From assembly GCA_023251115.1 (NCBI GenBank), contig JAHEZK010000003.1, positions 1-64,000 of the forward strand: 64,000 bases of DNA, given 5' to 3'. The stretch comes from Nitrosomicrobium frigidum (SeqCode) (GTDB lineage: Archaea > Thermoproteota > Nitrososphaeria > Nitrososphaerales > Nitrososphaeraceae). Positions 28,970 through 40,467 of this stretch are shown piece after piece; the stretch's first letter is position 1, and each line of letters begins with the position of its first letter. The notes beneath the pieces were generated by a model. That model searched no databases, was not told where the DNA came from, and saw only the letters and a program-made list of their open reading frames with translations. The translations under genes and the position numbers were made by a program.

Positions 28970-29095
28970 ACTAAATATCCCCTTCGTACTATTTGACTAA
29001 CCAGTGGTATAAGATTATAGAGTGATATAAAACAAAATTAAATGATTATGCTCTGATAAGAATAAATTTGTGCGAAGGCTAGGGTATTCTGTATT

Positions 29096-30217
29096 TTGAA
29101 CTATACGAAGGAAGAATTATCATCGCACAGTTTGCTTTGGATTTATTTTCTCATCTCCATAGGTGTGGCCCTTCAAGTGGGCGCCGCAAATTGGGATATT
29201 ATTTGGCATGGCGTCGTAAATGTAGAATCTTTCTTTACTCCACCACATACCGTATTGTACTCTGGTGTTGGTTTGTCTTTAGTATCCACTCTTGTAGGGA
29301 TAATATTTTCAATAAAACATGGTAATCACTCAACTGGATCAATTTTTTCGATCCACCACAGAATTCCTGCCCCATTAAAGCTAATTATCTTGGGATCTCT
29401 GGTTGAAGTATTCTCAGGTCAATTTGATAACTGGTGGCACTCAAATTTTGGATTTGACGGCCTCCTTAGTCCGCCGCATTTGATGCTGATAAGTGGAATG
29501 TTGCTTTCGATAATTGGTGCACTGATAGGTACACATTTGTCTGACTCTAAAACCAAATTCAAGGTAGCTTCTGAATTGATCGCATTTGGAATTCTATGGA
29601 TGGTCCTCGTCAATTTTGTTTTTATGTTCACGCTTCCCTTTTCTGAAGGTCAATACTTTGATTTTAATCCCTCTCCTACGACCGCGTTGGTCCTGGGATC
29701 AACCTTGCCTGCTGTATTTACGGCCATTATTTTCTATTCAGTGCAGGGCATTTCCTTTCCTTTTCGATTGACTGCTGTAGCTGCAACCTTGATGACGTTA
29801 CAGTCATCATCTACAATTATTTCCAATGTTTACTTTGCGGGTCTATTTCCTCTTTATCTTCTAAACATATTAGTTCCTTTGCTATTAGACTTCATTGCAG
29901 CTTTTACCAAAAATAATAACAAAGTACTCGGCGTTCGCCCATCTAAAGACTTCTTACGTATAGTCTTCTCAATTGCCATTTCTTTTTCCTTCATCACTTT
30001 GTATTTCCCATGGTCGGTGAATATGTTCAAAGCCTACTTTGGAATTGATCTAATTACATTTGAAAGCGTAGCGATTTTTGATCAGCTTTTTTGGAAATTC
30101 ATTATACCAATTTTGATGCCGTTATCATTTGCCTCGGCTTATGCGGGAATATTGATTTGGAAAAAGTTTTACAGATGGCGCAGGCTTACCAACGTGTTTA
30201 GACTCGTTGTTAGATAA
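29096..30217 (+). CDS. Polytopic membrane protein with duplicated W-H/PPH motif
   Basis: A 373-residue protein with about nine membrane helices. Two related motifs occur: WDIIWHGVVNVESFFTPPH (residues 33-51) and FDNWWHSNFGFDGLLSPPH (110-128). In both a W-H is followed exactly 13 residues later by the His of PPH, then by a small-residue helix (LYSG or LISG). The four histidines and aspartates beside the membrane suggest a metal or heme site. Similar WH...PPH proteins are known to me only as uncharacterised membrane proteins in bacteria. TTG start. Function unknown. Confidence 0.7.
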   Translation: MNYTKEELSSHSLLWIYFLISIGVALQVGAANWDIIWHGVVNVESFFTPPHTVLYSGVGLSLVSTLVGIIFSIKHGNHSTGSIFSIHHRIPAPLKLIILGSLVEVFSGQFDNWWHSNFGFDGLLSPPHLMLISGMLLSIIGALIGTHLSDSKTKFKVASELIAFGILWMVLVNFVFMFTLPFSEGQYFDFNPSPTTALVLGSTLPAVFTAIIFYSVQGISFPFRLTAVAATLMTLQSSSTIISNVYFAGLFPLYLLNILVPLLLDFIAAFTKNNNKVLGVRPSKDFLRIVFSIAISFSFITLYFPWSVNMFKAYFGIDLITFESVAIFDQLFWKFIIPILMPLSFASAYAGILIWKKFYRWRRLTNVFRLVVR

Positions 30218-39923: not shown

Positions 39924-40020
39924 GTTTATTCTACTTGATTTTAAAAGAATTTGATTGTTTTCTCCCTCATCAAGTCCTAAGATTTAGTAAACCGGAATTA
40001 ATAGAAAATAGTTGGTAGAT

Positions 40021-40467
40021 ATGAGAAATAGCCAATTTCTGAACCTAGTTTTGCCATTTGTATCAATGGGGTTAATCTATGCGACAATGCTAATTGGTGT
40101 TTATATCTCGTCTTTAAATAGCGGAATTGCATGTCCAGATTGGCCCCTATGTCCGAATGGATTTTCATATCCCCCTGATAAATTTTTCTATGAGCATTTT
40201 CATAGGCTTGTGGCTATTATTGCTGCTATTTTTACAGGTATTACTTTAATTTTTGTTAGAAAAAGCAAATGGAGATTAAATAGACTTGTAGTTGCAATTC
40301 TTACGTCATTACTGAGTGTACAGATAGCCATGGGATTTTTTGTAGTATCGACCAAATTGAATCCTTATGTAGTTGCAATACATCTCTCGATTGGAGTAAC
40401 AATTTTTTCACTTATTTTTCTCCTGCTTAGGGAATCTTATGTTGAAATCAAGAAAAAAGGATCTTAG
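40021..40467 (+). CDS. Half-size CtaA/Cox15-like heme A synthase protein
   Basis: A 149-residue protein with four membrane helices. It carries the CtaA features: SLNSGIACPDWPLCPNG (a Cys pair at the extracytoplasmic side) and EHFHRLVAIIAAI with heme-ligand histidines, and a second His in YVVAIHLSIG. Full-length CtaA has eight helices built from two such halves; archaeal short forms act as dimers. It helps make heme A for the terminal oxidase. An in-frame TTG three codons earlier is an alternative start. Confidence 0.8.
   Translation: MRNSQFLNLVLPFVSMGLIYATMLIGVYISSLNSGIACPDWPLCPNGFSYPPDKFFYEHFHRLVAIIAAIFTGITLIFVRKSKWRLNRLVVAILTSLLSVQIAMGFFVVSTKLNPYVVAIHLSIGVTIFSLIFLLLRESYVEIKKKGS

Follow-up and report, generated by a model that had tools for sequence, protein, structure and literature searches.

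An archaeal membrane protein with a duplicated Asp/His/His hairpin and a probable AmoC/PmoC-related core

The copper site at which methane and ammonia are currently believed to be oxidised lies in AmoC and PmoC (PF04896), the C subunits of the ammonia and methane monooxygenases. In pMMO, the CuC site is formed by D156, H160 and H173 and the CuD site by N227, H231 and H245, and structures do not show the two sites filled simultaneously (PMC12576850). A computational study places the active site at CuD, with its neutral Asn, as opposed to the carboxylate-bearing CuC (PMC11194816). The CopC and CopD copper proteins of ammonia-oxidising archaea (AOA) (PMC7785015) resemble the protein described below only in proposed role, namely to handle copper on the outer side of the membrane, and neither family matched it in Pfam or NCBIfam.

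The gene and its hairpin repeat

The window analyzed here is a 64,000-nucleotide stretch of Nitrosomicrobium frigidum DNA (contig JAHEZK010000003.1), on whose forward strand positions 29096 to 30217, stop codon included, encode a 373-residue membrane protein. The coding sequence begins at a TTG codon, which is presumably leaderless. Upstream, a 19-bp block, TGATAAGAATAAATTTGTG (29054 to 29072, forward strand), is near-constant in ten same-genus loci in a DNA alignment, while the DNA around it varies; its conservation suggests that it is likely a promoter-like block, with a possible TATA element. The copper-limitation promoter motif of N. viennensis did not occur above chance in the window. Orthologues of similar length, with 69-75 % identity, were found in 10 of the 11 other same-genus genomes searched, and more distant paralogues are spread across AOA. 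Neighbouring genes encode an ABC-2 exporter, a zinc-ribbon membrane protein, a radical-SAM protein, TatA, and others, in an order that is preserved only within the genus. A short COX15/CtaA-like gene (heme A synthase family) lies ~10 kb downstream, at positions 40012 to 40467 of the window.

The protein carries two similar motifs, W33-D34-I-I-W37-H38...P49-P50-H51 and F110-D111-N-W113-W114-H115...P126-P127-H128, exactly as the initial annotation had read them, with the same H-to-H spacing of 13. That reading counted the four histidines as ligands, and left out two further probable ligands: each motif also has an Asp four residues ahead of its first His (D34 and D111). The motifs are thus D34-x3-H38-x12-H51 (29195 to 29248, forward strand) and D111-x3-H115-x12-H128 (29426 to 29479, forward strand). 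Across a 69-sequence alignment of the core, comprising archaeal and actinobacterial (Actinobacteria) homologues, the sole invariant columns are D34, H38, H51, Y55, D111, H115, G119, and H128. Two D-x3-H-x12-H motifs appeared by chance in 2 of 200,000 residue shuffles of the window protein; conservation is the stronger support for the motifs. When the profile of the first hairpin was compared with that of the second, the match had an E-value of 1.9e-11, improving to 4.4e-13 (probability 97.9 %) with the wider family; because of these values, we consider the proposed internal duplication to be real. Residue invariance, together with the repeat statistics, rules out a chance motif.

In a full-length AF2 model (pTM 0.88), D34 and H38 lie at the end of helix 1 and H51 at the beginning of helix 2; likewise, D111 and H115 close helix 3 and H128 opens helix 4. 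The four histidines are therefore positioned beside membrane helices, as had been proposed, and both motifs are at one face of the membrane rather than on opposite sides. Because the first three loops on the motif side contain no Lys or Arg and some acidic residues, and the C-terminus is basic, the sites probably face outward (extracytoplasmic). These four helices make up the core (residues 1-150; 29096 to 29545, forward strand) that was matched by the profile and Foldseek searches described below. The remaining residues, 151-373 (29546 to 30214, forward strand), form a C-terminal extension of ~six more helices in the AF2 model and in our full-length alignment, A1; this extension is kept across the family and absent from AmoC.

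Relationship to AmoC and PmoC

Single-sequence searches of the window protein (Pfam, NCBIfam, and phmmer against the PDB) yielded no match, with Pfam silent up to an E-value of 10, and we found no description of a stand-alone PmoC-like family in the open-access literature. The initial annotation knew similar sequences only as uncharacterised proteins; what it missed was a kinship with AmoC/PmoC. The starting lead was a tblastn search against plasmids, which returned weak matches in the motif region to a Rhodococcus 'methane/ammonia monooxygenase subunit C'. For the family, a profile free of AmoC and spanning roughly the first 150 residues (A2) was then compared with 177,635 PDB sequences: the top 14 matches were the 14 PmoC/AmoC entries (E 4e-5 to 1.4e-3), the next match had an E-value of 0.19, and nothing else fell below 0.1. 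An archaea-only profile (A3) also ranked AmoC first (E 7e-4), with a weaker separation than A2. Archaeal AmoC was found by A2 at ~1e-12, with no other non-family ORF ranking higher, and when 830 ORFs from archaeal loci were searched with a bacterial PmoC HMM, the eight matches listed were all family members.

Alignment-to-alignment comparison by hhalign matched the family to AmoC/PmoC at E 2e-7, and the wider core at E 3.6e-10 (probability 96.7 %), in each case with both motifs in register; controls with reversed and block-shuffled AmoC scored at most 27, against 58.6 for the true pair. With the six ligand columns masked, the E-value was still 5e-4; with both 18-residue motifs masked, it was 0.03, near background, and the signal shared by the family and AmoC therefore lies largely in the motif regions. 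For the core, an AF2 model (160 residues, pTM 0.82), built on archaeal rows only and with AmoC excluded, was searched with Foldseek against 350,542 entries, and the top five matches were PmoC/AmoC chains (best E 8e-3), including 7s4h_C (probability 1.00) and 7s4l_C (TM 0.65 at 3.7 Å). The full-length model recovered no PmoC among the 50 matches listed, probably because only 4 of ~10 helices are common to both, and the full-length profile A1 did not find AmoC in the PDB; these misses are consistent with homology confined to four of the ~ten helices. We conclude that the core of the window protein, over roughly residues 27-144, is almost certainly homologous to that of AmoC/PmoC.

The likeness comprises a four-helix core with two hairpins and the aligned positions of the CuC and CuD ligands. 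Motif 1 aligns with D156/H160/H173, and its Asp/His/His set, with x3 and x12 spacing, is the same as in AmoC/PmoC. Motif 2 aligns with N227/H231/H245, but does not reproduce the Asn/His/His set: the window protein, like every one of the 69 aligned members, has Asp (D111) in place of the Asn. Of the earlier suggestion that the repeat holds two metal or heme sites, the metal half is strengthened by this alignment with copper sites. Heme received no support, as the ligand set is the PmoC-like Asp/His/His and no heme family was matched in Pfam or NCBIfam.

The two repeats also correspond individually to the two copper hairpins. The best match of repeat 1 is to the CuC hairpin (9.9e-9) and that of repeat 2 to the CuD hairpin (5e-5), with the cross pairs at ~2e-3 to 3e-3, whereas the two AmoC/PmoC hairpins match each other only at E 0.03, so that a duplication is not visible from AmoC/PmoC alone. 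The crosswise matches pair in this way, which suggests that one hairpin duplication underlies both AmoC/PmoC and the window-protein family, and it can be seen only through the latter.

Despite this kinship, the window protein is not AmoC. PF04896 matches its own genome only at a separate amoC on another contig (C35), and not at the window gene; the genome also has an amoA (C28). Relative to AmoC, the protein has ~six additional C-terminal helices, amounting to ~220 extra residues, and very low identity, and a 99/98 branch splits AmoC/PmoC from the family in a tree that involves long branches. Neither amoA nor amoB lies beside the window gene, although this is weak evidence, since archaeal linkage of these genes is loose.

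Distribution and gene neighbourhoods

Among 398 genomes of the phylum searched, 77 contained a match. Judged by E-value, a family member is apparently present in 62 of the 72 AOA genomes, and the other ten, including three of family f2, appear to have only AmoC itself. Conversely, members also occur in order-level relatives that have no archaeal AmoA (G031, G039, and G040), as scored by PF12942; PF02461 gave no match anywhere. Co-occurrence with AMO genes, raised as a question by the initial annotation, is thus common, but not strict in either direction. Other Thermoproteota (G110, G173, G209, and G254) encode distant, stand-alone proteins of 300-320 residues (L155-L158; L160:7880-8827, L161:5551-6498, L162:7957-8892, and L163:7460-8362), likewise in genomes without archaeal AmoA. 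These have D-x3-H...H in repeat 1 and N-x3-H...H (NEVVH...H) in repeat 2, which is the ligand set of AmoC/PmoC. No viral carriers of the family were found.

Several copies departed from the usual form. Short core paralogues are present in most genomes of family f9, and in two of them a paralogue of ~197 residues (L103:7974-8567 and L113:8013-8606) lies ~4 kb from a coxB/coxA/cupredoxin/ctaA-type terminal oxidase cluster. One archaeal paralogue (G022, L088:8089-9022) is broken by in-frame TAG codons, and is probably a decayed copy. A homologue on a Rubrobacter marinus plasmid (L044:7902-9016) appears to be frame-shifted, with its motif part unannotated and the rest in another frame under an annotated hypothetical gene. 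Nitrosomonas sp. sh817 and Methylocystis rosea each have a plasmid-borne singleton amoC/pmoC gene (L081:1911-2726 and L082:1926-2699), with amoA and amoB absent from the 2-kb flanks examined.

The archaeal family members are mostly surrounded by housekeeping genes, and not by copper genes. One archaeal clade has, at 6 of 11 sampled loci, a gene for a one-helix protein of ~193 residues directly upstream on the same strand, at a distance of -4 to 31 bp (L087:7333-7926, L089:8880-9452, L101:7449-8030, L116:7390-7962, L117:7339-7920, and L120:9152-9733). This protein, whose extracytoplasmic domain is presumed, has conserved P-H-x5-H and D-(H/Y)-Q motifs; searches gave it no above-threshold Pfam family and no match among PDB sequences. 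Comparisons with AmoB (hhalign E 0.25) and with the C-terminal domain of the actinobacterial homologues (E 0.6) did not support a relationship to either.

The actinobacterial homologues, of ~475-500 residues, are encoded on plasmids of Leifsonia, Streptomyces, and Mycolicibacterium, and contain the core and, some way beyond it, a C-terminal domain that opens with AHDPGQG. In one of the two homologues tested, a weak, sub-threshold match to FixH/YtkA-type domains (PF05751, PF13115; E 0.002) was obtained; the window protein does not have such a domain. In Leifsonia and two Streptomyces, the neighbours include heavy-metal P-type ATPases, a multicopper oxidase, a cupredoxin, and a metal-sensitive regulator, as well as YHS and HMA proteins and a four-helix copper-binding protein; the copper context of the Mycolicibacterium loci is less clear. 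No amoA or amoB was found in the flanks of these plasmid loci. As controls, a 50-kb stretch of the Leifsonia plasmid contained no copper genes and a stretch of the S. mirabilis plasmid few metal genes; however, the control stretch of the streptomycete plasmid pFRL4 was itself rich in metal genes, which weakens the copper association.

Possible functions of the stand-alone protein

We considered whether the window protein handles copper, binds another metal or none, acts as an enzyme in its own right, or serves as a C subunit. With roughly even confidence, we favour an outward-facing membrane protein that would hold or pass on copper and would not be a monooxygenase subunit. In each of the two tandem hairpins, an Asp and a His where one helix ends would meet a His where the following helix begins. 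The result would be a pair of adjacent Asp/His/His sites, both containing a carboxylate, as counterparts of CuC and CuD. Copper bound there, at the outer membrane face, might be stored, passed on, or moved, thereby supplying copper enzymes or limiting toxicity. We prefer copper handling to a working monooxygenase subunit because there is no AmoA/AmoB alongside and because Asp replaces the neutral Asn at the CuD-equivalent position. That carboxylate likewise speaks for holding or transfer over catalysis, as do the copper islands of Actinobacteria and the absence of any conserved redox partner.

The sites could instead bind zinc or another metal, or the protein could be purely structural or sensory, with no copper function. 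An Asp/His/His set suits zinc as well, a metal cannot be assigned from sequence alone, and the archaeal neighbourhoods provide no pointer to copper. The nearest proteins of known metal content, however, bind copper through these same residues (PMC12576850), and several of the actinobacterial genes lie in copper islands; we therefore regard this explanation as rather unlikely.

A copper oxidase or oxygenase that needs neither an A nor a B subunit, binding O2 at its two PmoC-like sites and oxidising a small substrate, is in our view distinctly unlikely. Its appeal is that CuD, thought to be catalytic in pMMO, falls inside the shared core, and that the invariant Y55 takes the position of the PmoC pocket residue F177 (PMC11194816). 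Further, the enzyme reading is kept alive by the distant Thermoproteota relatives, which lack archaeal AmoA and yet retain Asn in an Asp/His/His plus Asn/His/His arrangement. In the window protein, by contrast, the CuD-equivalent site is carboxylate-bearing, and neither an AmoB-like domain nor any other redox partner is conserved alongside; moreover, because a family member is apparently missing from some ammonia oxidisers, the protein is not a core energy enzyme there. Still more doubtful is the broader proposal that archaea and Actinobacteria share a wide class of stand-alone PmoC-fold copper enzymes whose activation of O2 does not depend on A and B subunits.

Finally, the protein might replace the usual C subunit in the AMO complex, as an alternative or stress-specific form comparable to divergent bacterial amoC copies. 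This would fit the common core fold, a genome encoding both AmoA and AmoC, and the several amoC copies possible in AOA, only some of them in the complex (PMC10030591; PMC7785015), but is very improbable given the separate clade, the ~220 additional residues and low identity to AmoC, and relatives both in genomes without AmoA and on actinobacterial plasmids whose flanks lack amoA and amoB.

Whatever its function, the family provides an outgroup for the C subunit, and reveals the internal hairpin duplication. By carrying Asp instead of Asn at the site proposed to be catalytic, it offers a natural experiment in the reactivity of CuD. Were the stand-alone enzyme class to prove real, the catalytic C subunit would have arisen from a duplicated Asp/His/His hairpin protein that was once solitary or copper-handling. 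If, as we favour, the window protein handles copper, then members of its family would be candidate components of the poorly understood route by which ammonia-oxidising archaea are supplied with copper.
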